From assembly GCA_003194525.1 (NCBI GenBank), contig NBIV01000365.1:1-51378 (forward strand): a stretch of 51,378 nt of DNA, read 5' to 3'. The position numbers and the translations under genes are program-made. Shown here piece after piece: positions 5,684-39,372 of the stretch (its first letter is position 1; each line of letters begins with the position of its first letter). The notes beneath the pieces are model-generated. The model ran no database searches. It was not told where the DNA came from and was given only the letters and a program-made list of their open reading frames with translations. The DNA is from Gracilariopsis chorda. Lineage: Eukaryota > Rhodophyta > Florideophyceae > Gracilariales > Gracilariaceae.

Positions 5684-6212
5684 GGAGGTAGGAAGCCGTC
5701 GGGACGGAACGTTTCTCCTCTGGAGTGAGGGCCTCGTAGTTTGCCACCACCTTGGCCATATCCTTCAGTGAGCAGATACACTGAGGGTAGGTATATCCAT
5801 GGGCATAACATAGGTGGTAAATGAGAGCCAACACCGCGACACGCGGATTATTATTCCGAGTATCGGAGAAGCGAACCGCAGGGCGGGTGTCAGTCCATCC
5901 AGGCCGTTGATAACCGGATTGACCGTTTGAAAACGGGAGTCGTTGGGGTTGAACCCGACTGTTACAACCGTACAAAACGGGGTCTTCCGTTCCCGTATCA
6001 CGGGTCATCTCCGTCGTTGACGGCAAATCACTGGTGGGTATCGACACACCATCCCCCTGCACTAAATGCACGGTATCAAATCCCTGTCCAGGGTTCCCAT
6101 CCGCGGTGAGCGGGAGAGAGGAAGCTTCGCTTTCCAGCAACAACGCCTTGGCGGATTTAGACCGATTGTTCGGAGTTCTTGCACGAAGTGCATCCCCTTC
6201 CGCTCGGGTGGG
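5493..6212 (-). pseudogene. Element A nucleocapsid (zinc-knuckle) segment downstream of the gag stop, knuckle mutated
   Basis: This stretch lies in the same frame as gag, separated only by its TAA, and is open to 5493. The equivalent of B's CX2CX4HX4C knuckle is here LCYAHGYTYPQC, with the first Cys and the His both changed to Tyr, so zinc binding should be lost. It can be translated with gag only by stop suppression or if the TAA is a lesion. It overlaps the start of the pol frame. Confidence 0.6.
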
Positions 6213-7670
6213 TTAGACCAGCTCGAGATAGGTGATCCTCCGCTTGTCCTCCCGACAACGGGTAACTGAACTCCGGATTGCCGGGTCAAGACCATCGATG
6301 AACATGGTACTGCGCTCCCCAGCGGGGTATACCTTACCACATCTGTGGAAAGCCTTGTTAAGGCGCACTGAGTAATCGGTCTCGGTCTCTGCAGCACGCT
6401 GGCGTGTATCTCGCAAAGCGAGGATAGCCTGCTGAATAGCGGTGTTGGTGGCGTAGGAGCGCAGAAGGTACTGCACAGCCTCCGGCCAGCAAGTAACTCC
6501 TCCCTCAGAGGCACGAGAAGATCCTGTGACAGAGTTGTATTGGTCATCCGCCATTCCCCGTAAGAAATACGGTAAAGCCAAATAGGCTTGTCCCTCATTC
6601 ATACCGAGGATATCGGCCTCCACTACGAAGCGGGATAAGAAATCCAGTACTAAGACTGGGTCCTCTTCAGTAAAATACTGGTTGCAGAGCGAGAGCTGCA
6701 TTCGCTTAATGCATTCTCGCACATTTCCTGTACCACGGGGCGTACGTCCAAGTGACGAGTCTTCGAGCCGGTAGTACCGGTATGATAAAAGATTCCGGTA
6801 ATCCGGGTTTGTCGGTTTCAATTCCCGGAGACCGGGGTGTTTTCTCCTCTTCTGGCGGGTTCGGATCGCACCTTCAGTGGCCGATGACCACTTCGAGCGG
6901 GAGGAGTAGCCTCGCTTCTCGTCCTCCGAGTCGGAGTCCGAGGAGCTCGAGCTAACCGAATGGTTTCGAGATGAGTCCGAAGATGTCGAAGAATCGGAGT
7001 CCGGATATTTTCGGTGGTGTTTCCGTCGATGACGGCGTTTCTTCTTCCCAGCAAGCTGGTCGTTGTGCGATGCCTCGTTTACTGGATCATCCGGGGATGG
7101 TTTGTCCATGAGGACGAACTGCTCCAGCGTCTCCAGGCGGGCACCAATCCGATCAAATCGGGCTTCAACTCCTTCGATGAAGGTGGCGGGTTGTCCCAAA
7201 CTCTGCAACACGGAGTTGACGTCAGACCGTAAAATACGGAGTTTCTCGGCAACCTCCTTTACGGGGGTTGCCAAGACCACCTCTTGGAGGGATTTTAGTT
7301 CCCCTACAAGGGTGTCATGGGCGGTCCACAGAGCGCGGACCTGGGATTCCAGGGAACTCCCCTCGGGGGTGTTATCGCCCGTTCCACAGGGGCTTGAAGC
7401 CGCGACAGCGGGAGCAAGCTGGTGTGCCTGGGGCACTGCGGCAACAGCCGGAGTCGGTGCTGCATTCCCCTGCGGAGGTGATAACGAGGGCAAAAGGAGG
7501 TTCCGGGGTTCTCGGTCGGGGGTATCATTCCGCAATGAAGCGGCGCCAGCATGGATGGAACTTGTCCGTATAGGTATACGGGCTACGAACCGAACTTCGG
7601 AAGTGTCCGCGTTCTCCCGGGAGCGACTACGCATAACCACTGGCTCCGCATCGGAGGTATTTCTCGACAT
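6213..7670 (-). CDS. gag: Element A Gag (capsid part), 485 aa, intact
   Basis: This is the structural polyprotein that assembles the virus-like particle. It starts at an ATG about 90 nt past the primer-binding site. After a disordered Ser/Pro/Ala-rich N-terminus comes a probable coiled coil (around residues 110-190). A Lys/Arg-rich stretch (KKKRRHRRKHHRK) follows, then a Ser/Asp tract, then a retrotransposon gag capsid domain over the last 180 residues, with a YFTEEDPVLVLDFLSRF-type segment and a closing GLDPAIR motif. It ends at TAA 6213-6215, before the zinc knuckle. The same TAA is present in B. The frame stays open for 720 nt after that stop. Confidence 0.85.
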   Translation of the reverse strand: MSRNTSDAEPVVMRSRSRENADTSEVRFVARIPIRTSSIHAGAASLRNDTPDREPRNLLLPSLSPPQGNAAPTPAVAAVPQAHQLAPAVAASSPCGTGDNTPEGSSLESQVRALWTAHDTLVGELKSLQEVVLATPVKEVAEKLRILRSDVNSVLQSLGQPATFIEGVEARFDRIGARLETLEQFVLMDKPSPDDPVNEASHNDQLAGKKKRRHRRKHHRKYPDSDSSTSSDSSRNHSVSSSSSDSDSEDEKRGYSSRSKWSSATEGAIRTRQKRRKHPGLRELKPTNPDYRNLLSYRYYRLEDSSLGRTPRGTGNVRECIKRMQLSLCNQYFTEEDPVLVLDFLSRFVVEADILGMNEGQAYLALPYFLRGMADDQYNSVTGSSRASEGGVTCWPEAVQYLLRSYATNTAIQQAILALRDTRQRAAETETDYSVRLNKAFHRCGKVYPAGERSTMFIDGLDPAIRSSVTRCREDKRRITYLELV

Positions 7671-7759
7671 GAGAAAATACCGTTACGACGGAAAACGATC
7701 ACGGAACTTCCGATGAATGAAAACAAACCTCGTAAGAGGGAAAACAAAAACCGATTCTC

Positions 7760-7772
7760 GGTCGTGAGACCA
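7760..7772 (-). other. Element A primer-binding site
   Basis: Three bases inside the 5' LTR the minus strand reads TGGTCTCACGACC, the expected start (TGG, complement of tRNA CCA) for tRNA-primed minus-strand synthesis. It differs at one base from the sites of B, D and G (TGGTCTCCCGACC). Confidence 0.8.
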
Positions 7773-7775
7773 CTT

Positions 7776-8589
7776 TGTGGTGCAATGACCCAATGGGGAA
7801 AAACACCGAAAGACGTTCGGGATCTTCCTCTCACGAGGTGAACCCAGTTGGGTAGAGCCCTCCCAGAGGTGTCACGGCGAAGCCGGTTTGTAAGACCAGG
7901 GACACCTGTCACGACTTGCGCAGGGAGGTGAAGGCGAAGAATCGGTATCCACGTGAGCGAGGTGTGATCCTCAGTAGAGGTATGTTTCCACGTAAGTGGG
8001 GAAGTGTGAGCGGGTGCACACAGGAAGGGCCGCGGGTAGCGGGATGTACTACCTTGAAAGGGGGAAAGGAGGAAGACTGGGCGAGGGTGAGTCGCGAGAG
8101 CGACGAACAAATACGGCAATGCCGGTGGACAGGACTCCCTATACAAGGCGAAACACCAATGTGATTGGAACAATTATATTCCCAAGGATGGGCCTCTTTA
8201 GATGTGCAAAGGGGTTAGATGTCCCGTGGTTCACGGCGTTTCCCTCCAAGGAGGAGTAGAGCACGCGCGCAAGCGGTAACAACTAGAGCCAATTCCCCAG
8301 GTTGGGGTCCCTTGTTGGGGAAGGTTTACTGGAGCGACGGCAGTGCGCCGTCGCACTAAGTACTAGCTTCCCAGAAATGGGTGTGAAAATAATAATTAAA
8401 AGCAATTAAAATACTCCAAATTCCGTGGCAACATCCACTACTGTGGCCAACCGCCATGTGACCCAAAACCGTGTCCCACGTGTCCATACCCACCATTGTG
8501 GGGCGTAGTTCATATACACATTACACAACCGATAATATCGGGAAAACGATCAAGTACCAGGAATCTCTCCCTGAGGGCGCTGCACTTCA
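7776..8589 (-). repeat. Element A 5' LTR (814 bp)
   Basis: Its boundaries come from comparison with two other copies in the window (24839-25665 and 35396-36210). On the minus strand it begins TGAAGTGCA and ends TTGCACCACA. It contains a CACGTG box at 8477-8482, an AT-rich stretch near 8385-8420 that is the likely core promoter, and a hairpin at 8334-8354. In the AT-rich stretch and around 8000-8130 it matches B's 3' LTR and not B's 5' LTR, including their shared differences in sequence and length. Confidence 0.93.
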
Positions 8590-11500
8590 CTAGAAGTCAG
8601 AAGGTTGCTACCGCATATAGGCCTGGAAGTATCAGAAGACTAAAAGTTGTGGTGTTGAAGCTACTCAGAACGAGAGTCAACCTACTGCTAGACTCTGGAG
8701 CGTTTCCAAACGTTCTATGTACTTTACTAATGAAAGAACTAATACTTTCACTAGAAGCAACCACTAGGAAGATTAAAGTCGTCAATGGAAGCTTTAGTGT
8801 AGTACAAGGTGGTTTCAAAGACGTTTTCGTGCTGTTCGGTGAGTCGAGAACTCTACTAAACTCTCTGGTTGTGGATTCCCCACCGGTGGATATGATTATT
8901 GGTTCCCGAACCTTGGAGGACATTCAAGCTTGCATTGACATGGGAAAGCGTACTGTGACCGTGAATATAAAAGAAAAAGAATTTGTACTAGATCTAGAGT
9001 ACCATGAACGTATCCCAGATAGGGAAGGATCGGAGACCGATAGTGAGGATTTCACCTCAGGGTCAGACATATATATAGAGTCTTCCAGTTTTGAAAGTGA
9101 CAAGAATAAGGAGGTTGTTGTTGCTCTTGCGAAGGAGATCGAATCCCACCAGATGATGAATGGTGAGGGTGAATAGGAAGAGACCATCCCCCAGCTCTTA
9201 GAAGAAGATGAAGATAGTGATAGTGAGGAAAAAGAGTAACATGTGCTGAGACATTCCGAAGAGTAGCAAGCTTTAAAATCCGCATTACTTGTGACAAAGG
9301 TCAAGCATCTCTCGAAAAGCGCACAAATGCAGTTCTCTGCAAGACTGATAGACTCCAAGGCCGTTGCTTGGTCTTTGGAAGACCTTAGAACTGCTGATGT
9401 CCCAATCAGGCATTCTTTCCAGCTGAAGGATCCAGAATCTTTAACGTTTTGTGCAAGACGTCTCCCACCGCGACATAGTTATGTGGTGAGAAAAGAGATT
9501 GATAAAATGCTTCTTGCAGGAATCATCAAACGATCAACCTCTGCCTGGTCCTTCCCTATTGTAATCAGAACAAAAAAAGACGGAAGCCCCATATTTTGCG
9601 TGGACTTCCGTGCATTGAATTTCAAGATGAAGTCCGATCTTTGGCCATTACCGCGCATAGAAGAAGTGTTTGATGACATTCGAGGATCTTCGATGTTCAC
9701 AACTTTAGATTTGTTTTCAGAATATTGGCAAGTAAAGATGGCCGAAGATTGTAAAGAGATGACTAATTCTATCTACAGATTCGATACATTCAACTTATGT
9801 CATTTGGATTGATGAATCCACCTGGTATCTTTCAGAGGATGATAGACGCCGTGTTGACAGACTTATCCTTCGTTCAGGTCTACTTGGATGACTTCATCAT
9901 CTATTCCGATAATATACAGCATAGCCTGATGCATTGCGAAAAGTAATCGGCAGAATAGCCTCGCATGGGTGGCAGATTAAGCTGGATAAGTGTAGTTCTG
10001 CGCAGCCTCGAGTGAAGCTCTTGGGACATATCATCGATAAAGTAGGAACAGCGACGGACCCAGAAACGATCAAAGCTATACAGGAAGCTTCACGTCTAGC
10101 CTCCGCAACAGAACTAAGAAGTTTCCTTGGACTGGCCAGTTACAATTGACGGTTTATACCTAGGTCTGCTGAAGCATCCGCTGCCTTGTATGAAGCAAAG
10201 TCACCAAAGAAAAAGTAGCTATGGCCCCCATAAAAGTACGTAGCCTTCCTGAATCTCAAGGCGAAGTTGGTGAACCCCGCCTGTTCTGAGATTTCCAGAC
10301 TTTGATGAGCCCTTCGTAGTTGAAACTGACACTTATGCATCCACTGTGTTGCTAGGGGCTGTTCTTTCTCAGAAAAGAGAAGACAAACTACACCGAGTAA
10401 AGTTCGCGGGACGTACGATGACAGCAACTGAGAAACGCTACTCAGCCTGCTAGCGCAAGGCACTAGCAGTCATCTTTGCATTGAAAAAGTTTCGTGTTTA
10501 CTTGCTGTTCTCTCTCTCATTCACACTCATTACTTATCACCAGGCTTTCAGTATGCGCTTAGGAAACGAGCTATTCATGGGAGACTTGCAAGATGGATGG
10601 ATTTTCTTTCAGAGTATGAGTTTGAGATGAAGAGACTGCTTGTCACGTATAGAAGTATCTGCAGAACAGGAGACCGACGAAGCCGTACTGGCAGATTCCA
10701 CAGAAGAATCAATGTTCGAAGACTTAGAATACTGTCTTTTTGATACAGGGAATTACATATTGGAATTGACATTGAATGCTAAGGATTCTCTCGAACGTCC
10801 TAAGAATAATAAAAACGCTAAGAACTATATGGTGGGGAGCGGAAGGCTCTTTTTCAGGATGTAGAAAGAGTCTCTAGTGATAACAGGAGTAAAAACCCGA
10901 CTGCAGATCTTAAGAAGTTTTCATGATGATATGGGACACTGGGACATTTGCGGTGCCTAGAAATTCGTATTACAACGCTATTGGTGGCCGGGAGTATACC
11001 GGCATGTTGCAAAGTACGTAAGCAGCTGTGATGGATGCCAGCCGGGAAAGAATATCCCGAGGTATCGAACTACGCTCTGATATCCTTTAACGGGCTTATT
11101 TCATTCGTTTTCAATCGATTATGTTAGACCCACGACAGCTCGGAAGAATCGATTTAAGTTGGTGGGAGTGGAGCATGTAAGAGGTTGGCCGATAGCAAAG
11201 GCCACGCCAAAATCTACCGCCAAAGAAGTGATCGAGTTTCTAGAAGAACATATCGTGGCTCCATTTGACCCGCCTCGTATCGTAATCGCTTACAATGGTA
11301 CCAGCTTCACTGCAAAAGCTCTGTCAGAATTCAAAAAAACTTCACGGTCTAACTTGAAAGACGGTGATGGCATATGCACCAATGTCGAATGGCAGAGCCA
11401 AACGAGTGATTGGCATTTTTAAGAAGTCAATGAAAAAGAGCATCTTAGAATGCCCAGCGCCTTGGGGCAAGGTTTTGCAGAAGGTACTTTATGGATGCAG

Positions 11501-11920
11501 GCGTCGTCACCTGAAGAATGGACCCTCTCCATTTGAATTGTTGTATGGTGTTCCCCCACGTATGTCCCAAGATGGCCCGTCTGCTTTCGTGATAAGCGGT
11601 GGCGACTTATATTGTGTAGTGGAATTCGAGTGTGATTCGCGTCAAAGGGCCACGCGAGCCCTGAAGCACGCAAATTTCCAACAAGCAGTTAAGGATAAAG
11701 TCTTTCACGCAGGAAATGAAGTGCTAGTAGCTCTAGGAGCAAGTAGGAACAAAGAAAAGAAATGTCCCCTGTTTACACCCAAGTTCTATGGTACTTGTAC
11801 GATCATTAGAGCTAAGCATCCTGCTTATATTCTAAGATCAAGGCATTGGAAGATAAGCAGGAGTCTTATTCACGCTCATGTCCTTGTCTCATATGTGTGA
11901 AAACCGACAATTCTCAAGAC
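8590..11920 (+). pseudogene. Element E, pol half: decayed Ty3/gypsy protease, RT, RNase H and integrase
   Basis: Several broken frames in order carry a protease (LLDSGAFPN near 8690), reverse transcriptase (VIRTKKDGSPIFCVDFR at 9291-9812, frameshift, then an intact YLDD at 9881-9892), RT connection (KLLGHIIDK, 9934-10149), RNase H (ETDTYAST near 10320) and integrase (11100-11900). The integrase has lost catalytic residues: IAYNGTSF where SDNGT is usual, and NGRAKR where the Glu is expected. Base composition is more AT-rich than A or B. The first E base abuts A's LTR. The missing gag half lies at 36211-37770, and the protein frame is continuous between the two when one TCTAG duplication is removed. 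Confidence 0.8.
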
Positions 11921-12005
11921 TTGAAGGGAAGGTGAAAAATGATGAATAATGGGTTAAAGGAGTACAGCATAAAAATTTGATATATGAATCTAGAAAAGCA
12001 CATGC

Positions 12006-12931
12006 TGTGAAGCAATATTGCTAGGGGGGAGATCCTCCCAAGGCCTTCGCAGTCTTGCACTCTTGTGAGGTACGCGCACCGACAGGCCCGTCCGTACCAA
12101 AAGGTGTTAGGGTGGAAACCCGAGGTGGCTTCCGGCTATACCGACAGAGTTGATAAGGAAAATCAGGTTACCAGCTGGTCAACGTAGTGCACAGGTCCGT
12201 TTGAGTGGTGTCCTCGTTCACGGAGAATCCACAAAAGGAGAAAAGAAAAAAAGGGAGAAACCAAAAGAGAAGGTACAACCCGAAGGGTCGTGCGGAAGGT
12301 CGAAAGAGACCCAGCGTTGGGGGGTGTTTCTTGCTCAACCAGCACGGCAAAACTGAATACTGAGTCAAACGGCTATCTGTTCCCACAATATAAAGTAACC
12401 AAAACGGTAAAAACAGAGAACGCTGGGCGAACTAACGGGTTAAGACAGAGAAGTGGTTCTTGGTGATACTGTGGGAGTGAGTATAACGTGACCAAACGCG
12501 GTGAAACCCCACCAGGAGTCGGTCACATCGCGCAGGCGATGACCTCAAAGCCAAGTGACAGCTGGTTTTTACTTCAGGGTGAAACGGCAAGGCCGTCCTG
12601 CCTTAAGGACTATTGGGTGACAATAAATTAAGAATACTACTACTGTAGTGTGCCATAATTGTGGTCCACACACTTGTTTCACTTGGTGGCGCTGCCGGCC
12701 GTGGCACAATACGACAAGTGTGAATCATGCCAACCATGAATAATATGCGTACCCTTGCCACCACAGAAATCACCCACAAAGGTTCCAAAAATACCAATTA
12801 AAATTCATATCGAATTTCACCCAATATTTCCGAGGTTCCACTCATACCTGAGTTGACCCGGTGCCACATCGGTATTGAACCATTCATGATCCACCTCGCC
12901 TAGCGGATATCTGCGCACGCATTGCTTTACA
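12006..12931 (-). repeat. LTR H: probable solo LTR related to element C's LTR
   Basis: On the plus strand it starts TGTGAAGCAAT and ends ATTGCTTTACA, comparable with C's TGTGGTGCAAT and ATTGCACTACACA. Length (926 bp) is close to C's 916 bp. Shared blocks include CTTGCACTCTTG near 12054 and ACCCGAAGGGTCGTGCGGAA near 12280, and an AT-rich block lies near 12620. The flanks CATGC (12001-12005) and GATGC (12932-12936) match at four of five bases, fitting an old target duplication. No internal sequence is attached. Confidence 0.55.
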
Positions 12932-13239
12932 GATGCATGTATACAATTTTTGCGCAGTTTATTGACTCAATACATAAGGGTTGAAGGACTAGCGATTGAT
13001 GAAGGAGCGTAATGGAGTACTATAGCATCCCCCTCACAGTTTGACGCATGCCTACTGCGACGCTCGCTGTGGTTATTGCGACGATGACGGTGTGCTAGGA
13101 GTTGCTTTTTGGTGTTAGAACCAGTTTTCGGATCTCCGACACATACATGAACGTCGAGCCATCACCAACGCAATCTTCCCACATAGCTCAAGCCGGTAAG
13201 CCTCAGCACAGTCCAGAATGTGTTTTCGTTACGTATCGA
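12932..13239. other. Unassigned spacer between two LTRs
   Basis: I see no convincing coding sequence, RNA gene or repeat here. Short frames read as low-similarity shadows. Confidence 0.4.
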
Positions 13240-13791
13240 TGTTATACAGTGAGATCTGACAACATGCGCAGTGCAACGCGCGCTGGACCAATTGATCAGT
13301 GTGCCACGTGGGTTACAGTGGCTAAGTAATTAGTTTACTAATTTATTTAATTATTTTAGATAGGTATTGACACTCGGCTACTGTGGTGTGGGGCCATGCC
13401 ATTAGGGCCGGCCCCAACGTATGCCACGTAGCTGAGTACACCTGAGGATGAGCCTCGCTCACCCTTGAGGTGGGTACAGTGATCCCTCATCAAGGACGGT
13501 AAAGGTAAGCACCTCTTGGCTAAGTGTGATACCAACTGGTTTCTTCAATCCACCTTTTGGTTTCGCTGAGAGTATTCAGGCTTTTCTAACCCGTGTGCGC
13601 CGTACTACCAACATTACTAATTGGTTACAGTAGGCCCACCTGATATCTTGCGCCACTAGTGGTTTTATGCTGCCACACCCATTTGGCTACCCAGCTTCCA
13701 CCCTTCAGGTCGAGCCTTCGTCGCGCTCCCGTCAAATGTTTTCCAAACGGACTACCCCACTGGCACTTGACACCCAATTGGTTGTACCACA
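13240..13791 (+). repeat. LTR G, plus orientation, 5' type (followed by a primer-binding site)
   Basis: The right end is firm: TTGTACCACA, then three bases, then TGGTCTCCCGACC, exactly the LTR/primer-site layout of B. The left end at TGTTATACAGT is inferred from D's LTR start (TGTAGTACAAT) and from the distance to the CACGTG box (13305-13310), so it is less certain. An AT-rich core promoter lies at 13327-13362. No plus-strand gag follows; the sequence runs into the 3' end of element D in the opposite orientation. Confidence 0.6.
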
Positions 13792-13794
13792 TTT

Positions 13795-13809
13795 TGGTCT
13801 CCCGACCTA
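13795..13809 (+). other. Primer-binding site of orphan LTR G
   Basis: TGGTCTCCCGACCTA, identical over 15 bases to the sites of B (25669-25683) and D (20601-20615). Confidence 0.75.
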
Positions 13810-13881
13810 ATGTAGAGGAAAATAGAGCGAGCGGCGCGGCCAAGAGGCAGATTGCCGATGCACCGTGGCACGCGCGCGTCC

Positions 13882-14151
13882 CTATTGGCCAGAGGCGTTT
13901 CGGGGCGCCTTAGCAGTGAATCTGTGGTCAGGGATACGCCCTTTTCGGAGATTGTGCTCCATGTAGCGCATTTTGGTCCAATAGCGATTAATAAAATCCA
14001 CCGGGATATTTTCAGGCGGTATCCACTGGTCTTCCTCCGGGCCATAGCCATACCAGCTGAATTTGTAGAGCATCTCACCTTTTTCGTCAAGGCCAGCGGA
14101 GACGATGCGGTATATGACATATTTGCGGCGGTGCTGCTCTGTTAAATACAT
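13882..14151 (-). pseudogene. Element D chromodomain (C-terminus of Pol)
   Basis: The domain reads YVIYRIVSAG, then LYKFSWYGYGPEEDQWIP and a PENIP-type helix start. This is the aromatic-cage layout of integrase chromodomains, which direct insertion to marked chromatin. It aligns with C's domain at 50161-50505 and B's at 33150-33370. It is a retrotransposon part, not a host HP1-type gene. Confidence 0.75.
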
Positions 14152-14745
14152 GTTCTCGAAGGCTGCATAGCCGTCGTCTGACGAGACAGTTTTGCCGCCC
14201 CATTCTCCATGGTTTGTTCCTCGGAGCGCGGCATGTTGCGCCGATTCTTAGGCAATGGCACCCTGTGGACCCACTTTATTGACCTGAGGACCAACATGGT
14301 CAGCGGTAATGCGTGTATCCAGCGATGCCGCCAAGGTCGTCGGTCTGGATGGTAATGGCAGCCTTGATGGGGCTGCTTCGACCACTGGAGTGCTTGAGTG
14401 CGGGGCGGGAGGTGGTGGCGTCAGAACTCGTAGAGATGTGCGCACAACGGCCTGCGGTACGCTCGCACTTCCGGTAGGGTGGTGCATTGCTCCGACTGAC
14501 GGGCAAGGTGACATGGACACGCGTTCAGTCGACACAATATCCTGAAGGCCTTGCTCTGTCGTACCCGTATGGACAGTGGACGTGATAATCCTATATGTTC
14601 CGCTGGACCAAGGTACCAACTTGGCCGCAGTGTCTTCGGCCTCGTGTTCTTCCTCGGGTGGCCGTTCCAAATGGACATAGTCCCCTGGGAAAAACTCTGG
14701 CACAAACCAGATGGCCTAACCAAAGTCCGCTTTGTAGCGCTTCTT
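14152..14745 (-). pseudogene. Element D integrase C-terminal module and linker
   Basis: Frame 14703-14248 begins with PEFFPGDYVHLERP, a typical start of the integrase C-terminal module, and continues into a Pro/Ser/Thr-rich linker. It is shorter than the linker of A and B. Confidence 0.55.
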
Positions 14746-14748
14746 CGC

Positions 14749-15846
14749 TTAGTGCAAATGGGTCTGGGCGGCCTTCAGGATAGAATCGATTCGCTTATGC
14801 AAATACCTTTTGTCCTGAGCTGACGTCATCTCGCCAGGAACTTCCTGAAGGATGCCTGTATCCTGTAGGTCTACCATGTAGGGCGAAGGCACCTGGAACA
14901 GGGTAAGAGCAAAGTGTGTCGTACCCGTGGACCTATGAACTTGATTATTGTAGGCATAGACCAAAGGTTGAACGTAATCGTCCCAGTCCAACTGGTGCTC
15001 AGCCACGTAGTGGCTCAACCTAGAGGTCAGCGTCCTATTAACACGCTTAGCTTCTCCATTGGTCTGCAAGTAGTTGGCGGTAGTAAGGAGGTGTTTTAGA
15101 CCTACGGCCGAGCACACATGTTCGAAGAACTTGGAGACACATTGTGGGCCATTGTCATTCAACAGATATAAAGACAGACCCTACGGGTATATCCAGTGGA
15201 ACAGAAATGGCATGGAAACATCAGTTGCCGTGGCGGCCCGTAAGGGAATAGCACACGTCATCTTGGAAAACCTGTTGGTAATAACCAAGATGAAGGAGTG
15301 CCCATGGGTCGATTTAGGGAAAGGTCCTAGGATGTTCATGGCAACGAATTCCAAAGGTCCTAGGATGTTCATGGCAACGAATTCCAAAGGTCCTGCCACA
15401 GGGAATAACTTAAGCTATCCCTGTTGCAGCGCTCGTGTCCCCCAATTTTTACCGCATGCTGCGCATCGCCGTGCGGTCTCCATTACATCATTGGCAATGA
15501 AAGGCCAATAGAGGAATCTCCTTAAGGTCTGATACATTTTCGTCCTGCCTGGGTGGCCAGAAAACCGAGGGTAATGAGCTAGGTATAGAAGACTTGCCTG
15601 AAGGGCCTTTGGAAAAACCCGCTGTAGTGCCCTATCAAGTGCAGAGTGGCGGCACAATATTCCTTGACGGTCATAATCAAACAAGCAACCAGGGGTCCCG
15701 ACTGCAGTAGCCCACTGTACACACTTTCCATCACCCTTCTGGGCCGCGAGGAATTCCTCGAGGAATATGGGGGTGAGGTCTCCTACTTCTGCTTCGGCCA
15801 CGTGGACTTCCAAGGATGGGTCCTCCCAGTCAATAGTGCATAACAT
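14749..15846 (-). pseudogene. Element D integrase zinc domain and catalytic core
   Basis: 15846-15415 holds the H-H-C-C zinc domain (HYPRFSGHPGR to CAACG). 15399-15181 holds the start of the core, damaged by an in-frame 33-bp tandem duplication (15323-15355 and 15356-15388); both copies read MNILGP where A has a catalytic Asp. 15162-14749 keeps the second Asp (NDNGPQ) but has NGEAKRVNR, with Lys where the catalytic Glu belongs. The enzyme should be inactive. Confidence 0.78.
15323..15388 (-). repeat. 33-bp perfect tandem duplication in D integrase
   Basis: Two identical 33-base units (15323-15355, 15356-15388) add 11 residues in frame to the catalytic core. Confidence 0.9.
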
Positions 15847-15861
15847 GACCTTAGGTTCTTC

Positions 15862-17170
15862 TTAACTCCCTTGGCTAGTGGTAATGTCTCCTACCAGGTC
15901 ACCCATTTCTGGATCATCGTCCGCATCCTGTAGACCGTCCCATATGGCGGGAATCTCATCGTCCAATGGGGTTTGATCCGTGCCATCGGTCAGGATACAA
16001 GATAACGCATCGGCATCTTGGTGCTCTAAGCCAGGCCTATAGGTAGCCTCATACTCAAATTCGGCCAACCGGAATTTCCAGCGGGCCAAACGGGATGATG
16101 CATCGATCATTTTCAAAAGCCATCGGAGGCATTGTGATCTGTGCTAATGGTAAACCTAGTACCCTCTAGGTAAAGTTGCAGCTGTAAAAGTGACCAGAAA
16201 ATGGCCGAAAATTCTCGTTCGGACGTGCTGTATTTCCTTTTGTCCTTCGTTAACGAACGGCTCCAGTATCGAATCGGTCGATAGTCCTTCGGAGAATCTT
16301 GCTCTTGGAGCAGCGCGCATCCAAATTGGGTTGCCGAGGCATCCGTATCAAGGACGTAAGGTTTGTTTGCCCTGGGCAAGAACAAGATTGGGGGGTTTAC
16401 TAAATGGTCCTCGAGGCCCTCGTAGGCTTCGAACTGCTCGTATGTTAGGTCATCAAATTCCGAAGGGGTCCTTTTCTTGAGCATCTCGTTCAGCGGAGGC
16501 GCAATCTTCGCAAACCCAGCGACAAACCTTCGGTACACATTGCATAAACCTAAAAAGGATCGCAGTTCCGTGTGGGTCTTCGGGGGTTTCGCATCCCTAA
16601 AGACCTTCGTCGTAGTTTTCGCTACCTGGACCTTACCAGATAAGACCACGTGGCCAAGATAGTTCACAGAGGGCTGGAAGTAAAAACAATTCCTCAGCTT
16701 TAGAGTGACACGGTCCTGCTAGATTAACCTTAGGACAGCCTCCACATGAGTGAAGTGTTCACCAACGGACCTCGAAAAGATGATTACGTCGTCCAAGTAG
16801 ACCAGGGCAAACTTCCATTTCACCCTGGATAGTATGATATGCATTGCCCGCTAGAAGGTAGCCGGTGCGTTCATCAGTCCGAAGGGTATACGCGTGATTC
16901 GGACCAATCCCTCGTGGGTCGTAAAGGTAGTCAAAGGCTTAGCCTTGTCGTCCATTGGTACTTGCCAGTAGCTGCAATTTGCTTCCAACATGGTAAGAAC
17001 TTGTGCCTCCCCCAGGGAATCAAGACAGTCATCCATCCTCGGAATAAGATAGGTGTCCCGTTTGGTCAATGCATTGAGCTTACGTTAATCAATGCAAAAC
17101 CGTACGGTACCATCTTTCTTGTCCACATGGACAAAAAGGCTTGCCCATTCGGCCTCATTGGGTGGGGCAC
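15862..17170 (-). pseudogene. Element D reverse transcriptase and RNase H
   Basis: 17069-16851 carries RT residues (TYLIPRMDDCLDSLG and IPFGLMNAPATF). The YLDD region near 16780-16805 is in a broken frame. 16667-16113 carries the connection and RNase H (HTELRSFLGLCNVYRRF, YVLDTDASATQFGCALL, YWSRSL). 16116-15862 carries the tether (DADALSC). Several frameshifts and stops separate the pieces. Confidence 0.8.
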
Positions 17171-18313
17171 GTTCAGTTACTCCGGCGTTCCGTATCTTCT
17201 CCATATCTTTCGCCCCTATTTCTCTTCCTTTCAGGCCTTTCCTGTAAGTGTGCTGTTACTGCGGCGTGGCTCCATCCTTGAGGTACATGCGGTGTTTCCT
17301 CGCATCTATCTGTCCCATTTTGCCACTCCACATTCCGGCTAAGTCCTTTATGAGCTAATGACCTCTTTCCTGTAAGGCTCAAAATCCTCACCGAGGTTAC
17401 CTCCGTTCTCCCAATTAGCCATTGGTTCGCTACTCGACGGTAGGTTTCCGAGCTCACCCTCCATAAAGGCCACTGGGGCAGGTAGGTTAATTTCAACTAC
17501 TGTACCTTTGAGCAGCCTGGTGGGTTTGTACGGAAATTGCTCACTCGTACCCGCGAATGGCCTATTTGGTACAACATCCATCACTCCATTGGCCCTTAGC
17601 GATAAATGCTTCGTGACCAGCTTGGGTTGATTCTGCAAAGACAAAAGACCTGAGGATTCGCACACATCAGCGGCCGCCACTTGGGTCATCGGTGGTATTA
17701 CTATCGCCTTGGCCAAGCGTAGCTAATTGGACAACGTCCGCTTGGGGAACCTCGGTCTTGAAAGGGTGGCTTCGGGTCCGGGGCGTGCTCTAACAATGAA
17801 CAATGGCGGTCCTCGATGGAATGAAACTTTCCTTTGGCCAGGATAGATAGCTATAACATATCTATCATTAAAACTGGCCCCTACGATACCCTCTGCCTCC
17901 AGGTTCAGACATACAAGAAACCAATTCCTGACCTTCAAGTGACCCAATTGGATGTAAGTCGGGATGATCCCGGGGATATCAATTGTTCAGCGTGACGCGA
18001 CCGTCACCCTTGGCGACTTCCACTCCTGCAGCATCCTATCCCAGCCCATGTACCAGGTTTGGGCTTGCATCCCTGTCCAACACGGCAATGAAAGTCTGCG
18101 TGGTGTTCGTTTCCAGTCCAAGGGTCCCGGTTACTTTATAATTCTCCTTCCGTAGGACACCTACTGCGTCCTCAAGGTCTTCCCACTGGTCTACGGCGTA
18201 CGCCTGACTGACGTCCCGATGATTTCCGTCCTTCGGTTCTAACTTTCTCTTCTCCTCTAGGGTCTTCCGAACCGGAGTACTGACGCAATAGATGTTAGAA
18301 GAGCTGCACGCCT
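17171..18313 (-). pseudogene. Element D protease region, heavily decayed
   Basis: By position this interval should encode the protease and the spacer to RT. Frames 17716-17348 and 17947-17723 look like the flanks of a gypsy protease, but I find no intact D-S/T-G active site. Confidence 0.45.
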
Positions 18314-18763
18314 CTATGCTTCCCTCCGGTCATTTTCCTGTGTCTTCAGTGCCACAGGATTGTTCTGATGGTCAGGGTGCTCGAGCGCATCGGCAGGCTC
18401 GTCTAGCATACTGACCTGAGTTTGCTGCACGGAATTCGTAAGGGATGTTACATACCTTGACCTCCCCGGAGTCTCTGTGGTTCTCTGGTTAATTGACCTT
18501 CGGTAGTAGCCTTCCGCGCAGCGCATCTGATAGTTCTCCCCCGTTCGGACCATGACAGTCTTACGGATTTCCTCAGGCATAAATTTGACGCAGTCACATG
18601 GACAGGCCACGGACAGGCAAATGAAACACGGCTGATTGGACTTCGTAAAAATATCCTTCCGCGGCGCCACTGGAGAAAATTTGAGAGCAACCGTAGCAAA
18701 TGGTGTGGTCGTCCCTGAGGTCAGAACCGATGGTGCACCAGACAAGGCCGGAGAGTAGCTCAC
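18314..18763 (-). pseudogene. Element D nucleocapsid-like segment
   Basis: It contains CFICLSVACPCDC at the place where B has its CX2CX4HX4C knuckle; the His position is Cys, so the site is probably degenerate. It overlaps the gag remnant by a few bases in another frame. Confidence 0.5.
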
Positions 18764-20263
18764 CGTGAGTGCGCCTGCAGCTTCAGAGTGTCCATAGGCT
18801 GAGTCAGTATCGGTCCGTGACTTGACCAGATGGGCACTTCCTCCCTTCGACAGGGGTCTGTGCGTCCCCTGGTATCCACATCACCCGCACGGCGGGAGGT
18901 CCTATAGGTCTTCCGGTACCCTTTGGCGAACCTCACCAGCTGACGTAGCGAAAGTTCCGGATGGGCGGTGTAGTGATTACTGACGTGAGTCCGTATGGCT
19001 GGTAACAGACCTGCGATAAGGTATCGCTTCAGCAGACCTTCGGAAAACACGTTTCCGCAACGGCAGGCACGTGTCTCAAGTTGGTCAGCAAAGTCCGTTT
19101 TGGTCACATTGGAACCTTGATGGTATCCAATGACGTCCTGATAGGCATCCATTATGTGGCCATCGGAGGCATGGGTCTCCAATACATAGTGAACGACCTC
19201 AGGGTAGGTTCATTAAAGCTCCCTCTGACAAGCATGTACAGGATTGGCTGAGCCAGATATCTTAGCAACCATATGGTTTTCCTTTGACCACTGAGTAGGA
19301 ACTGAAATAGGAACATTGCAGCTCCTTCATCGATACCGTTCTGGTCACAGGCCACTTGGAACGAACTGCAGAACCTAAGGACTTCAATGGGATCCTTCCC
19401 AGAACACTTGTCCTGGATAGTCACTTGCATCCTCTTGGCCAACCTAGCAATATTCTTGGCGACCGATGAGGTGTATCGGTTGGACCGTCCCACAGGCGGT
19501 ACCTGTTCACGTCTAAACCCTTCTAGAAAAGCTCATTAGTCATGGCCAATGGTCCGAGGCGTCGAACGTCTGCCTCCTCCGCATCTGTATCGGAGGTGCT
19601 GGAGGAGTCCGAATGGTCGTCATCACTTGAGTCCGAGTGGTCTCTCTTCCGACGGCTCGACCTCTTTGACCTTCGCTTACTCTTCTTTTTCCTCTGGTAT
19701 ACGGCACTTCCATAGTCCCTCAAGACAGGCTTTTCACTGACCCGATGGTATTCTGCGGCATGCCCAATGCCGTATTGACCAATGGGCTGATCTTCCGCCC
19801 GGCCTCTCTGTCTCTGAGGTCTCTCTACCCCAGGCCGTTGATGTTCCAACGGACGTTTCTGATGGTTTACCAGGCAAGGGGGTAATTCTGAAGCTGCGCC
19901 CTGGGATCCGGTCTGGTCTGTCCGATGGAAAACTGACGGTCTACTTTGAGAAACAGCTCTAGAGCTGCCAAATTGGCCTACCTGGCGTGTGATTTCCCCG
20001 TAAATGGTCGTGGCGATTGACTCTACTAGTACATCCGAGTGAACGACCAGAGGAACTAGTCGGTGAGGCAACATGAAGAGGCGTTTGCAAAGTGCCCTAT
20101 CCAACCGGTCTCTTACAAATTGCTCCACTTGTTCTTCACACCAAGAACGGAGTTGCAGCCATAGGAGAGTGGCAACCTCGTCCACCATTTGGGCATTGGG
20201 GGCGAGTGGGGCTGGGTCCTGACGCTGTAGTTCAATATTTATTTGGTCGGCCGACTGGTTCAA
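18764..20263 (-). pseudogene. Element D Gag, broken by frameshifts
   Basis: 20263-19523 is the N-terminal part, ending in a basic patch (RRSKRSSRRKRDH) and a Ser/Asp tract like that of A and B. 19493-19152 and 19182-18760 carry the capsid domain (KDPIEVLRFCSSFQ and LKRYLIAGLLPAIRTHV), which aligns with A's EDPVLVLDFLSRF and MFIDGLDPAIRSSV. Frames shift between the pieces. Confidence 0.7.
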
Positions 20264-20600
20264 CTGTTCGACCCAGTCGCGAAGGCGGGCGACAAATGGC
20301 GAACCTCAGATGAGTCGTACGGATTTGTCCACTGGGTCAATTGTACGTCCATCAGAACGGCTGCGCGTGCTCCTGTGGTCACTTGCACTGTCCCCTTGGG
20401 CGGGTACCGGTGCAGGAGTGTCCGAAGTGGCCACGGCTGCTGGGTTCCTTGTTGGACGTCTGTTGTGGGGTGGGGGTGTTGGTTATCCATGAGGTGAAGT
20501 TTGCTTTCAGGTCGGAAACGACGACAAGTAGTCCAATGGTAGAAGTCCTATTCGATTTCTTTCGGTCTGAAAATTCTAAATGGCATTTCTTGTAGGTTTA

Positions 20601-20615
20601 TAGGTCGGGAGACCA
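20601..20615 (-). other. Element D primer-binding site
   Basis: The minus strand reads TGGTCTCCCGACCTA, two or three bases inside the 5' LTR and about 340 nt upstream of the gag start. Confidence 0.75.
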
Positions 20616-20618
20616 GAT

Positions 20619-21144
20619 TTAGTAGAATACTAGTCCAAAGGCCAAGTGGGGAAGTTGTACCTACTAGGGGTAGCGGTGGCAGAGTACCAGCCACTCGGTT
20701 GACAGGCCACTGGGGTGTAGTTGTGTCTTGGGCATCTTTTGACGTGCAGTCGCAATAAGAGGGCGTAGTCTGAGGTCCGTACAGGTCGGGCGCACTCGTA
20801 ACGATGGCTTAAAAGCCTGTGTCCACTGGAAGCTTGGGGGCGAGTAGAGGACGGAGGTGGTGCTTGCTTTTACTCCTCAGTGGCCGGCTGCACTCGAGCC
20901 AACTAATATAGTCGGCTAGCTCTAGAACACCAGTAAATACTACTAAAAAATTAAATAGAATACTATAATATTCCACAGTGCACTTTACGGCAGTGCCAGG
21001 TCCACCGGACGTCACACTTCAGATCACCATTATCTCTGACCCACGTGGCTAATATTGACACGTGCTGGTAGGGCTCTGGTCCTTCGTCCACCGTTTCGGC
21101 ACTCCAGCTTGCCAGTCATCTGACATTAGAGCTATTGTACTACA
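20619..21144 (-). repeat. Element D 5' LTR (about 526 bp)
   Basis: The start TGTAGTACAATAG at 21144 and the end beside the primer site give the limits; the last bases (TTCTACTAA) are eroded relative to G's TTGTACCACA, so the inner edge is uncertain by a few bases. Two CACGTG boxes (21042-21047 and 21059-21064) lie upstream of an AT-rich block at 20934-20975. Confidence 0.6.
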
Positions 21145-22120
21145 GGTAACCCGTCCGGTTTTTTCTACTACCTCGAAGGCGCCATTGACTGCTTACACGT
21201 GATCGGGTTTACTGAGGCTCCGGACGACCCATGTCTTTTTATGAAACACAAGTCACCCACCAACTACACCATCATTTGTCTCAATAGCGACGACTATGTA
21301 GTCCCCTAAACCACCACCAGCAACATCGACAGCCTGTTCTCATAGCTCTCAAAAAAGTACAACATCCGCCGAACTGGCACATCGACAAGATACCTCGGAT
21401 GGACAATCATCTACACTGATCATGATGTACATATCAGCCAGCCTAACTACATAAAGCAAGCTCTTGCCTTTGCCTAGCTTTCCACTTGCAATCCTTCACC
21501 GTCCCCCCACGATTTGAAAGCCAAGTTTCACTGCCTTATGGACAACAAGACACTTTTATCCAGCCTCAATGACCTTTACCGGCAAATTTTCGGTACTCTC
21601 CGATAGGTGACGGATTGTACTCGACCTTTTATCGCCTATGCCGTATTGTGCCTTGGCCATGCGTCTCAGAACACCACAGTTTGACATTGGAACCTTTTGA
21701 AAGACGTTCTGAGGTACCTCCAAGGCACAAAAGAAAATGGCACACTTTTCCGTTACGTTCGTGAGTCAAACTCTGCACAACTATTATTTACGACCTATGC
21801 CGACGCTGACTTTGCTACAGACCAAACTAACAGGAAATCCATACCAGACTTAATCTCCATGTTCTGCGACCACCCGATTTCTTTGGCCTCCTGTCAACAG
21901 TCTTGCGTGGCACTCTCAACTGCCAAATCAGAATACACTGCCACCACATCAGTCGTCCAAACTACTTTCTTTCTTCGGTGCACGCTGCACTTTTTTCATC
22001 TCCTCGACCCCTGCCCCTCTCTTGTCCTAGTCGACCACCCATCGGGTCTTGTTATCGGTCAAAACACAGGACACTCAAAACGCCCCGAGTTAATTGACTC
22101 AGGGTATCATTAGATCCGAG
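21145..22120 (+). pseudogene. Ty1/copia pol fragment (late RT and RNase H)
   Basis: Broken frames read in order: FTEAPDDPCLF and CLNSDDYVV (copia RT end), TSTRYLGWTI, then 21697-22113 with MKDVLRYLQGTKENG, TTYADADFATDQTNRKS and ALSTAKSEYTATTS, the classical copia RNase H blocks. No LTR, integrase or gag of this element is seen. It abuts D's LTR on the left. Confidence 0.85.
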
Positions 22121-24430
22121 ATCACCTTCAACGCGACGATATTAAGCTTGAATGAGTCCCATCAGCCCACACCCTGGCTGATGTATTCACAATACCCACG
22201 AGACGGGTTACTTTTCTACGTTTCCGCCCGACGTTGCACATATAATCTTCCGAGGCTGCCTTTTGTACTCTCCAGCATCAGCTGGTGTGTTTTTCACAAC
22301 CCAAACGGTCATGAACGTGAAGATTCGAAAGGGTGTCGAAGAGCGCCTCTCACAGAGTCTGTTGTCACATGTAGCCAGGGCACACCTTAGCCGCGGCCAC
22401 CTATTACACTTAAGCTTGAAGCCAACTACACCTTAGTAAACTTCGAGCCATCGGCTCCTTCCATACCGTCATCACAAATTCGAGCTTCATCGCTCTTTTC
22501 ATAACTCTCGCACGAGCTCCTTCTCACATAGTTCAGACCTGTCCAGTTTGTTAGCACGTTGGCGGTTGTTTCATTTCGTGACAGTTGGAGTTTTTCGCAT
22601 CCTGAGGGGTATCGAATGGACGCAAAATTACGCGGCGCCAACTGACCACCGACAACTTGGAGGAGTGCCAAGCAGCCTTTGCGAACAGTGTTGGCCTGCT
22701 CCCACATCGAGATTTTGGCCAGCCCAGCTACAGTGAGGCATCTCCTGCAGCAACCAAAAGTTGCCCCACTACACCCCTCCGTGGGGTTTTGTAGCCTAAC
22801 GCTGCAGTGCACTTCAAAAACTTCGTTCCTACCCGATCAACCGCTTCAGGCGGATGTGCTTTGTTTGAAAAGATTGCAGCCTACTGACGCTCACTCTCAG
22901 CCCTTGAGTCTTCTCCATGAACTTCAGTCACCTGATCGGGACGTACCAGTACGGCATATCCATGCGGAGGAACTGTCACAACTCTATTTTTCGTTCTAAA
23001 TGTCGAACCAATCCTACAGTAGACCATATATCTGTCAAAACAGCACCGATCAACGCAGTCGATGGTATAACACTTATTCAAATCTCGCGGCGCGCCCTCC
23101 ACAGCTTTCGTACTGCATATTACTGCATTTCAATTCCGGTTTTTAATGGATCTCAGACCAAACGACTTCTGGTCGACTACTATTTGTCTTCCAAACTGTA
23201 CCTTCGCTATACGCAGTGAGCGAAAAAGGGTGTTTTAACGGGAAGGATAGAGACAAACAACTGTTACATTTGCGCAAGAGAGTGTTCCAACCACACAAAA
23301 AACAACGCAGAAGCTTTGCATCTCTCTGGAGCTGATGACGTAATATTTCTCAGTGCTTTGGTGCATCTTGTTCCTCACAAGTTTTTGCAGCTACTAAACC
23401 ACACTGCCCGCGCTTTTTCACCCCATCTATACTCCCTTTGGCATCTGAAAAGCTATATTTCGACATAACTGTTCGCTGATCGTATATATGAGAGTAGGGC
23501 GCTTCGTTTTTATTGCAGTTGTGACATTGATGACCACTTATTTGGATCATCTGGAACGTGGCGAGAAGTGGAGGGATGTGCAGAAGGCGCAGAGCCCAAC
23601 CCACCGTTCGATCAGCATTTCATTGAAGAAGTTTTGGAGATATTTGAAACAAACGTGCGTAAACCCCAACCGTACTCGCTGCGCTCTTCTTCCTGTTTAA
23701 AAGTCATATGGTGTCGAAACTTTACAAACCGCATTTCGTCGCAAGCTGTGCTGCTAGTAAAGATACCTCTCGGTTGTGTTTCATTCAAGTTACAAAAAAG
23801 TTTCTTTGCGACGCATTTGCCTACTAGAGGTCACGGATTCCAGCCACTTGGAATTGTTATATGACGAAACCGCCAATATCTGCTTAAGAATCCTTCCCCA
23901 GCAGACGTCGAAATCCTTTAAATGACTTGGATAGCGGAATCTTGTCGCAGACTGTCATCTGTTGAGCTGATACTGGTTGGTTTTCGAATTGATTTTCTGG
24001 CAGAACTTCGCAGCGATACCAGCCCTTCTGATGAACTTCGAGGCATTTCTTTTTCAGACTTTTGACCTACGTAATGCAGTGCACCGCGTTCATGTCTAAT
24101 CCTATCCGTGGATTTCGACTACAGAGTCCTCCGTCATTCCGCTATCGGAATCACTTTGAGAGGTTTGAGAGGAGGCAGAGGGACTCTCTTCCCCTAGCTG
24201 CCTGCCAACCTCACCTCTTCGTCGGGACTGATCTGCAGCATCCGTGGTATGCACTCCCTCATTCATTAAAATACGATTGCTGCAGATGCCTGCGCTGCAA
24301 TAACAACCGATACCATGGATTGTTCTCCTTCGACAGGAGCAATGCAGGGTGCTGTAATCCCCCTTGCATCTGCATATGCTAAAAACCGAGCTTATTTCTT
24401 TCTGAAGATCAGTTACATCTTCCTCTTTCT
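22121..24430. other. Unassigned sequence, no recognised gene
   Basis: Only short frames occur on both strands (for example 22426-22812 minus, 22679-22999 plus, 23568-23864 plus). None shows a motif I recognise, and stops are frequent in all frames. It may be a decayed transposon or a host pseudogene. Confidence 0.35.
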
Positions 24431-24838
24431 CTAGACCCGTGGTCCCGTTTCGTGTGTATCCCCAGTAGATGCTGCAGCCATCCAATTTAGCAGCAGACAA
24501 ATCGTCTGCTTATGCATCATTCCAATACTTTCCAATGACAAAAGCAACTGTTCTAGAATGAAGAGCAATCTGTTGGGCTGGTGGGACCAGCCCTGAAACT
24601 GAAGCTGCGTTGTCCAGTACAAATCGACGATCATCCTTTTTCCAATCTGGTGTTCCGACAAGGAACGGAGTAGCAAATATCTTCTTCAATTATGTGATCA
24701 TATCTCCTTCCTTCATCGCTTGTAGCCATACCTTCTCTCTCAGATCCCTCGCCATTTCTTCCTTCTCTTGAACGGATCTTAATTCTGTTAAATCTTTTCT
24801 GCTCAAGTATGAGAGTCTCATGAGAGTCTCATACTTTT
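24431..24838 (-). pseudogene. Unidentified coding-like remnant interrupted by element B's 5' LTR
   Basis: Reading leftward from the LTR edge, the minus strand gives a charged helical stretch (LTELRSVQEKEEMARDLREK) to about 24690, then after a stop a second frame 24676-24431. Codon usage looks protein-like but I do not recognise the family. If the inversion described in the findings is real, the rest of this gene lies left of element A, outside the window. An 11-bp direct repeat (ATGAGAGTCTC twice, 24809-24830) sits by the junction. Confidence 0.35.
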
Positions 24839-25665
24839 TGAAGTGCAACGCCCTCAGGGAGGGATTCCAGGTACTTGATCGTTTTCCCGATATTATCGGT
24901 TGTGTAGTGTGTATAGGAACTACGCCCCACAATGGTGGGTATGGACACATGGGACACGGTTTTGGGCCAATTGGCGGTTGGCCACAGTAGTGGATGTTGC
25001 CACGAAATGTGGAGTATTTTAGTTAATATTATTTATTATTTTCACACCCATTTCTGGGAAGCTAGTACTTAGTGCGACGGCGCACTGCCGTCGCACCAGT
25101 AAACTTTCCCCAACAAGGGACCCCAACCTGGGGAATTGGATCTAGTTGTTGCTGCTTGCGCGCGTGCTCTACTCCTCCTTGGAGGGAAACGCCGTAAACC
25201 ACGGGACATCTAACCCCCTTGCAGATCGAAAGAAGCCCATCCTTGGGAGTATAATTGTTCCAATCATATTGGTGTTTCGCCCTGTATAGGGAGTCCTGTC
25301 CACTGGCATTGCCGTATCTGTTCGTCGCTCTCCCGACTCACATCGTCCTCTCTTCCTCCTCTTCGCCCTTCCTTTTCCCCCTTTTTAGGGTAGCACCTCC
25401 TGCTATCCGCGGCCCTCGTGTGCGCATCCGCTCACACACCCCCACTTACGTGGAAACATACCTCTACTGAGGATCACACCCCGCTCACGCGGATACCGAT
25501 TCTTCGCCTTCACCTCCCTGTGCGAGTCGCGACAGGTGTCCCTGGTCTTACAAACCGGCTTCGCCGTGACACCTCTGGGAGGGCTCTACCCAACTGCGTT
25601 CACCTCGTGAGAGGAAGGTCCCGAACGTCTTTCGGTGTTTTTCCCCTTTGGGGCATTGCACCACA
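24839..25665 (+). repeat. Element B 5' LTR (827 bp)
   Basis: It begins TGAAGTGCAACG and ends TTGCACCACA. It differs from B's 3' LTR and A's 5' LTR in the AT-rich block (25020-25042) and in an altered, longer stretch near 25340-25400. The CACGTG box of the other copies is CACATG here. A 9-bp perfect hairpin with a 5-nt loop (25073-25095) lies just downstream of the AT-rich core promoter, so it would fall at the 5' end of the RNA. Confidence 0.93.
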
Positions 25666-25668
25666 AAG

Positions 25669-25683
25669 TGGTCTCCCGACCTA
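25669..25683 (+). other. Element B primer-binding site
   Basis: TGGTCTCCCGACCTA, three bases after the LTR. The matching tRNA 3' end would be TAGGTCGGGAGACCA; I cannot name the tRNA. Confidence 0.85.
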
Positions 25684-25770
25684 GAATCGGTTTTTGTTTT
25701 CCCTCTTACGAGGTTTGTTCTTATTTACCGGAAGTTCCGTGATCGTTTCCCGTAGTAATGGTATTTTCTC

Positions 25771-27228
25771 ATGTCGAGAAATCCCTCCGAAGCGGAACCA
25801 GTGGTTACGCGTAGTCGCTCCCGCGACAACGCGGACACTTCCGAAGTTCGGTTCGTACCCCATATCCCTACACGGACAAGCTCCAGCCGTACTGGCGCCG
25901 CTTCATCGCGGAATGATACCCCCGACCGGGAACCCCGGAACCTCCTTTTGCCCTCGTTATCACCCCGGCAGGGGAATGCAGCATCGACTCCGGCTGTTGC
26001 CGTAGTGCCCCAGGCACCCCGGCCTCCTCCCGCTGTCACGGTTTCAAGCCCCCGTGGAACGGGCGATAACAACCCCCAGGGGACTCCCCTGGAATCCCAG
26101 GTCCGCGCTCTGTAGACCGCCCATGACACCCTTGTAGGGGAACTAAAATCCCTCCAAGAGGTGGTCTTGGCAACCCCCGTAAAGGAGGTCACCGAGGAAC
26201 TCCGTATTTTACGGTCTGACGTTTACTCCGTGTTGGAGAGTTGGGGACAACCCGCCACCTTCATCGAAGGAGTTGAAGCCCGATTTGATCGGATTGGTGC
26301 CCGCCTGGAGACGCTGGAGCAGTTCGTCCTCATGGACAAACCATCCCCGGATGATCCGGTAAACGAGGCATCGCACAACGACCAGCTTGCTGGGAAGAAG
26401 AAACGCCGTCATCGACGGAAACACCACCGAAAATATTCGGACTCCGATTGTTCGACATCGTCGGACTCATCCCGAAACCATTCGGTTAGCTCGAGCTCCT
26501 CGGACTCCGACTCGGAGGACGAGAAGCGAGGCTACTCCTCCCGCTCGAAGCGGTCATCGGCCACTGAAGGTGTGGTCCGAACCCGCCAGAAGGGGAGAAG
26601 ACACCCCGGTCTCCGGGAATTGAAACCGACAAACCCGGATTACCGGAAGCTTTTATCATACCGGTACTACCGGCTCGAAGACTCGTCACTTGGACGTACG
26701 CCCCGTGGTACGGGAAAGGTGCGAGAATGCATTAGGCGAATGCAGCTCTCGCTCCGCAACCAGTTTTTTACTGGAGAGGACCCAATCCTAGTACTGGATT
26801 TCGTATCCCGCTTTGTAGCGGAGGCCGATATCCTCGGTATGAATGAGGGACAAGCCTATTTGGCTTTACCGTATTTCTTACGGGGAATGGCGGATGACCA
26901 ATACAACTCTGTCAGAGGATCTTCTAGTGCCTCTGAGGGAGGAGTTACTTGCTGGCCGGAGGCTGTGCAGTACCTTCTGCGCTCCTACGCCACCAACACC
27001 GCTATTCAGCAGGCTATCCTCGCTTTGCTAGATACACGCCAGCGTGCTGGAGAGACCGAGACCGATTACTCAGTGCGCCTTAACAAGGCTTTCCACAGAT
27101 GTGGTAAGGTATACCCCGCTGGGGAGCGCAGTACCATGTTCATCGATGGTCTTGACCCGGCAATCCGGAGTTCAGTTACCCGTTGTCGGGAGGACAAGCG
27201 GAGGATCACCTATCTCGAGCTGGTCTAA
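25771..27228 (+). pseudogene. Element B Gag, one nonsense codon
   Basis: It has the same length and domain order as A's Gag. A TGG codon is TAG at 26113-26115; otherwise the frame is open to the shared TAA 27226-27228. It has the basic patch KKKRRHRRKHHRK followed by a Ser/Asp tract (about residues 210-250), then the capsid domain. Confidence 0.85.
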
Positions 27229-27945: not shown

Positions 27946-27962
27946 CTGAGGGAGTCTCCCCT

Positions 27963-29143: not shown

Positions 29144-29152
29144 TTTACCACA

Positions 29153-35339: not shown

Positions 35340-35383
35340 TTTCGTCTGGGAATCCTCCGCTTCCGCGGTCGTTTTCCCGTCTT

Positions 35384-39368: not shown

Positions 39369-39372
39369 TAAA

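Follow-up and report, generated by a model that had tools for sequence, protein, structure and literature searches.

Here we report that a chromosome segment lying between two oppositely oriented LTR retrotransposons, A and B, has very probably been inverted by recombination between them. The window analysed here is the whole of contig C365 (51,378 bp), and the assembly searched comprises 91.3 Mb in 1081 contigs. A and B are homologous copies in opposite orientation, one at each end of a segment, S (8590..24838), which is inverted relative to its outer flanks and holds the pol half of a broken gypsy element (E), a gypsy relic and a remnant that we call G. Such an inversion had been put forward in an original prediction made from the window alone, and it is supported by a second contig, C246, on which A's other LTR is of the predicted kind, four of five flanking bases agree and the broken remnant resumes. 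In the searches of genome DNA described below, the best 40 of 62 to 1766 candidates were scored per query (the remnant G query gave five in all), and "best other copy" denotes the best among the scored copies in each search.

Two opposed elements and their exchanged target sites

Element B (24839..36210, plus strand) is a full-length LTR retrotransposon of 11,372 bp, with a 5' LTR of 827 bp (B5, 24839..25665) and a 3' LTR of 815 bp (B3, 35396..36210), both on the plus strand. Its Pfam domains (RVT_1 and RT_RNaseH_2 within 29153-30238, rve within 30941-31588) follow the order RT, RNase H, integrase that is characteristic of Ty3/gypsy elements, its LTRs are of the form TG...CA, and 5-bp target duplications are found in its family. 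Between its integrase and 3' LTR, B also carries two antisense ORFs of 191 and 325 aa (33812-35339, minus strand) without a Pfam match. The stretch 33300-35300 is 92-95% identical to 39 other places among the matches listed, and the two ORFs may possibly represent an extra gene of B's family.

Element A, also of Ty3/gypsy type, occupies 1..8589 on the minus strand as an inverted match to B. Its 5' LTR (A5, 814 bp) lies at 7776..8589, minus strand. Only the 5' part of A is present in the window, as C365 begins inside the element; its 3' end is therefore off-window and became the subject of the key prediction. We found that C246 (112,336 bp) also ends inside element A, and that the remainder, including the 3' LTR, is at C246:103512-112336, overlapping window positions 1-5732 (5.73 kb). 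Over a 1200-bp stretch (1590-2789) C246 is identical to the window, and over positions 1-1500 and 4190-5389 it matches at a rounded 100% and in each case scores 29 bits below the self-match; for 1-1500 the next scored copy is at 95%. The last 230 bases of C246 differ from A by no substitutions and two single-base gaps, and from B by seven substitutions and three gaps. Although the two contigs are thus slightly different in two of the three compared stretches, a single element A running across C246 and C365 is the most likely reading of these comparisons.

A 5-bp target duplication appears to be the habit of this family. Six LTR loci were inspected, four of them solo LTRs and two of them 5' LTRs with adjoining interior; the duplication was perfect in three of the four solo LTRs (L003, L004 and L005) and absent in the remaining one, L007 (C135:127208-127796), which has the mismatched flanks CCATA and AAATT and is possibly another product of ectopic recombination.

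At the outer end of A's 5' LTR, the bases CTAGA (8590..8594), which make up one half of the target-site duplication made by the element that interrupted E, are the exact reverse complement of TCTAG (36211..36215), the other half, which follows B's 3' LTR. B's own left flank is CTTTT (24834-24838), unlike its right flank, so that the flanks are as the original prediction had described them. Beside the first of these sites lies the pol half of E (8590..10989 at least, plus strand), with a weak protease match and the start of RT; its end is near the limit of the fetched relatives. Beside the second lies the gag half (36211..37702, minus strand). When the two halves were searched separately, they were found adjoining with an overlap of exactly 5 bp in 28 of the 39 other pol places listed, and a gag place lay less than 2 kb away on the same contig and strand in 31 of the 39. 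Among the 11 places where the 5-bp overlap was not seen, seven lacked, among the matches listed, a gag place sharing their contig and strand, three had gag alignments that ended early (extrapolated overlaps of 33, 11 and 11), and in one the gag place was at a distance of 11 kb. As the halves meet elsewhere with a 5-bp overlap, E is best viewed as a single old copy split at the duplication CTAGA; the earlier observation that its two halves flank B3 and A5 is borne out by their match to contiguous E copies. E's own LTRs were not found: once A and B had been masked, comparing the window with itself listed no repeat. Elsewhere, C43:289626-303955 holds three E-family places about 6.72 kb apart on one strand, with the look of a tandem array.

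The site at the other end of S tells the same story from the second contig. Remnant G (24238..24838, plus strand) ends against B's 5' LTR and has four other matching places in the assembly, at 86-91% (C82, C157, C268 and C118). Its last five bases, CTTTT (24834..24838), make up half of A's original target-site duplication. It had been predicted that A's 3' LTR would be flanked on its left by AAAAG and that the remnant, then delimited as 24431-24838, would resume beyond it. The five bases outside A's 3' LTR on C246 are AAAGG on the plus strand (that is, CCTTT), which agree with AAAAG at four of five positions; the exact predicted flank joined to the LTR edge is absent from C246 and has three matches elsewhere. 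Left of A's 3' LTR the remnant does resume: on C82, which carries an empty site, the window's part of G matches at 36 of 40 bases up to 24838, and the C246 flank, turned round, then takes over at 99 of 121 bases (E 1e-32) with a 5-bp overlap. The C82 site reads CCTTT as C246 does, against CTTTT in the window, which places the single mismatch on the window side. The outcome that would have spoken against an inversion, an A 3' LTR and flank like A5 and TCTAG, was looked for on C246 and did not occur.

The target-site duplications thus appear exchanged, exactly in the case of CTAGA/TCTAG and at four of five bases in the case of AAAGG/AAAAG, with the 5-bp register taken from empty sites. Together, the registers at the E site and the G site indicate that both target sites have been split and exchanged between A and B, as an inversion requires. 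We rejected a flank match by chance, since the E site and the G site each line up with empty sites elsewhere in a 5-bp register.

LTR types and tracts shared by A and B

The LTRs are of mixed type in both A and B. A5 and B3 share many diagnostic sites against B5, including the lack of a 14-nt block, and the K2P distances follow the same division (A5-B3, 0.037; A5-B5, 0.087; B5-B3, 0.084). A tree of nine LTRs gave the split of A5 plus B3 moderate support (SH-aLRT 91.1, UFBoot 92). As read from these comparisons, B's two LTRs are shown to derive from different elements. On C246, A's 3' LTR (outer edge 103512) is of B5's type, as had been foreseen, matching B5 at 97% over the full 822-base query; as it is of full length (823 bases), it carries the 14-nt block missing from A5 and B3.

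The finding that A5 matches B3 and not B5, which had been offered as independent evidence, stands as regards the diagnostic sites, the block and the distances, but it says less about partnership than was supposed. A distance of 0.037 is typical within an LTR type, and the C3 copy is as near to A5 (0.035) as B3 is, so the likeness is mainly a subfamily signal that does not by itself name A as the partner; we rejected it as sufficient proof. Likewise, six other copies outscore C246 against B5 among the scored copies, and the pairing of A's 3' LTR with B5 is, on these scores, one of type and not unique. A comparison of the first 1.27 kb of the 5' interior with two type-2 elements (L006 and L008) gave no signal of interior chimerism: A has 71 and 67 differences from them and B has 64 and 59, B being slightly the nearer of the two. 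Chimerism of A and B is thus seen at the LTRs only, with no switch point demonstrated in the interior on this comparison.

A more specific connection between the two elements comes from their internal regions. Across A's first 7.4 kb, 291 of the 7385 aligned sites distinguish A from B, and these differences are strikingly sparse in two tracts. Tract X (1641..2338 in A, 31109..31806 in B) is identical over 698 of 698 bp, while none of the 37 other scored copies exceeds 97%. Tract Y (about 4206..5406 in A) shows eight differences in 1200 sites; with 4190-5389 as the query, matched at 28053..29251 in B, B scored 99% and 2121 bits and the best other copy, of 37, scored 97% and 2021 bits. When the A-B differences were shuffled (400 shuffles for each window of 400, 800, 1200 and 1600 sites), stretches so poor in differences never arose, and the fewest found in any 1200 sites was 22, against the eight observed in tract Y. 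Shuffling assumes even constraint, so the comparison with other copies carries more weight. Both tracts point to an exchange of DNA between A and B themselves.

Apart from tracts X and Y, the two elements are 5.2% apart and look like ordinary members of their family. For A's 5' half, B ranks only 10th of the 39 other scored copies, and the matches listed for that half of A and for the 3' half of B revealed no subfamily link that could be used. The original description of A and B as "sister" elements does not hold in general on these comparisons. Neither, probably, is the 16.2-kb extent assigned to the inversion, with ends at 8590 and 24838. This is the distance between the LTRs; the tracts place the breakpoints, and with them the crossover, probably inside the elements, so that some 23-30 kb would have been flipped (28.8-30.2 kb for a crossover in X, 22.7-25.1 kb for one in Y).

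Tracts X and Y also provide a relative date for the exchange versus the insertions. LTRs that would have arrived together have diverged by a K2P of 3.7% for the insertion at the E site and about 3% for that at the G site, whereas tract X has no differences in 698 sites (a rough 95% upper bound of 3/698, or 0.43%) and tract Y has 0.7%. Set against one another, and with equal rates assumed, these values indicate that the last exchange between A and B was much younger than the insertions.

Apart from E and G, segment S contains a gypsy relic (13885-16718, minus strand) that matches an integrase zinc-binding domain, RNase H and, weakly, a chromodomain, and a weak PCIF1_WW match near remnant G (23469-23861). 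No intact host gene was recognised in S among the 22 of 35 listed ORFs (at least 95 aa) scanned, whole or in part, against Pfam, and thus a functional effect of the flip is not apparent. Outside S, and adjoining E's gag end, two ORFs on opposite strands lie within 37941-40356. One, of 475 aa (37941-39368), is a ubiquitin-specific protease ORF whose relatives are named ubiquitin carboxyl-terminal hydrolase 14 or 6; the top match is at 92%, and among the best 120 of 2899 the highest-scoring match with a named organism belongs to Agarophyton chilense, at 76% over 80% of the query. Given this match to Agarophyton, a genus of florideophyte red seaweeds, the host is apparently a red alga. The other ORF is methyltransferase-like.

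Alternative readings and proposed history

Three other accounts of these observations deserve consideration. B might be an unrelated inter-element recombinant, with no inversion having taken place and its flank match to A due to chance or to an insertion hot spot. The LTR subfamily signal, which alone does not identify A as the partner, would allow this, and L007 suggests that such recombination has occurred elsewhere in the genome. Nevertheless, two base-exact coincidences would have to have arisen independently, one at the E site and one at the G site, each in the right orientation; we regard this account as refuted in substance and scarcely credible.

A second account places the flip in the assembly and not in the DNA: the true order would be G-A-G ... 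E-B-E, and the assembler would have switched elements in a stretch identical between A and B. The same swapped flanks would result, tract X is an exact 698-bp repeat of the sort needed, and the assembler evidently failed in A, where C365 starts and C246 ends and where the two contigs are not quite the same. On the other hand, B is crossed whole by its contig, and elements 5.2% apart outside the tracts should be resolved by long reads. C246 follows A through X, Y and about 0.3 kb into A-like sequence, so that both contigs would need to have taken the same wrong path (although the reads were possibly shared). In addition, the tracts are specific to A and B, suggesting a real exchange, and the scored assembly matches include no second copy of E pol, E gag or G that is nearly identical. 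We consider an assembly flip quite improbable, and infer that the DNA itself, not only its assembly, is inverted.

It is also conceivable, though unlikely, that the A-B pair is a recurrent inversion switch, with both orientations present in the sample or the species through repeated crossovers and conversions. The two tracts seem to differ in age (0/698 and 8/1200) and so suggest at least two exchanges, both contigs break inside A as disagreeing reads might cause, and recurrent inversion at inverted repeats is known from yeast chromosome XIV, as described in the available text of PMC9731477. If this were so, the segment may still invert in the species, or indeed in the individual that was sampled, and the breaks in A would be explained. 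However, contig breaks are ordinary in 11-kb repeats, one crossover and one conversion would account for the tracts, and the assembly holds no second arrangement: we looked for a hidden second haplotype and saw none, the nearest other copies among the scored matches being at 81% for E pol, 76% for E gag and 91% for G.

Based on these observations, we favor a single inversion and propose the following history. Two elements of one Ty3/gypsy-type family would first have inserted some 16 kb from each other and facing opposite ways, one of them in remnant G (duplication CCTTT/AAAGG) and the other within gypsy element E (duplication TCTAG/CTAGA). Long afterwards, these copies may have aligned as inverted repeats, and a reciprocal crossover in their internal regions, most likely in or beside one of the A-B-specific tracts, would have inverted everything between. 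Each element would thereby have become chimeric, its two LTRs coming from different parents; the duplications would have been swapped, and the flipped segment would have taken with it one half of G and one half of E, leaving the other halves outside. The other tract may best be explained by a gene conversion of its own, or a further exchange, between the same pair. Because there are two tracts and not one, either X or Y could represent the crossover and the other the conversion, and it is also conceivable that the crossover lies elsewhere in the elements.

Comparison with known inversions

The mechanism proposed here is already known, and the A-B case is another instance of it. By title we found no red-alga report of retrotransposon inversion by ectopic recombination, a weak negative given that most subscription literature lay outside its scope. 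What the present case offers is a base-resolved example of LTR retrotransposons apparently inverting a chromosome segment, in which predictions made from one contig could be checked on a second.

In plant LTR retrotransposons, disagreeing LTR pairs and conversion tracts reveal exchange after insertion (PMC7251063), and discordant LTR pairs and conversion tracts are likewise what we describe for A and B. That study treats LTRs, solo LTRs and dating, and the word "inversion" is absent from its main text, as available. A 24-kb flip/flop inversion polymorphism on Saccharomyces chromosome XIV lies between homogenised repeats (PMC9731477, in the text available), and resembles the A-B case in the size of the inversion and in the homogenised repeats; there, however, the repeats belong to a family of host genes and each orientation is documented, whereas here they are retrotransposons and one orientation has been seen.

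The closest of these likenesses in structure is with the Galileo-generated inversion 2z3 of Drosophila, for which the accessible text of PMC2775673 describes opposed copies at the breakpoints, exchanged duplications, chimeric copies and an origin by ectopic recombination. Opposed copies and exchanged duplications are present here as well, with chimeric copies at the LTRs only. Galileo belongs to the DNA transposons and makes 7-bp duplications, and its inversion was compared with non-inverted chromosomes; the inversion that we propose, of probably some 23-30 kb, would be the work of an LTR retrotransposon family with 5-bp duplications and is known from the inverted state alone.
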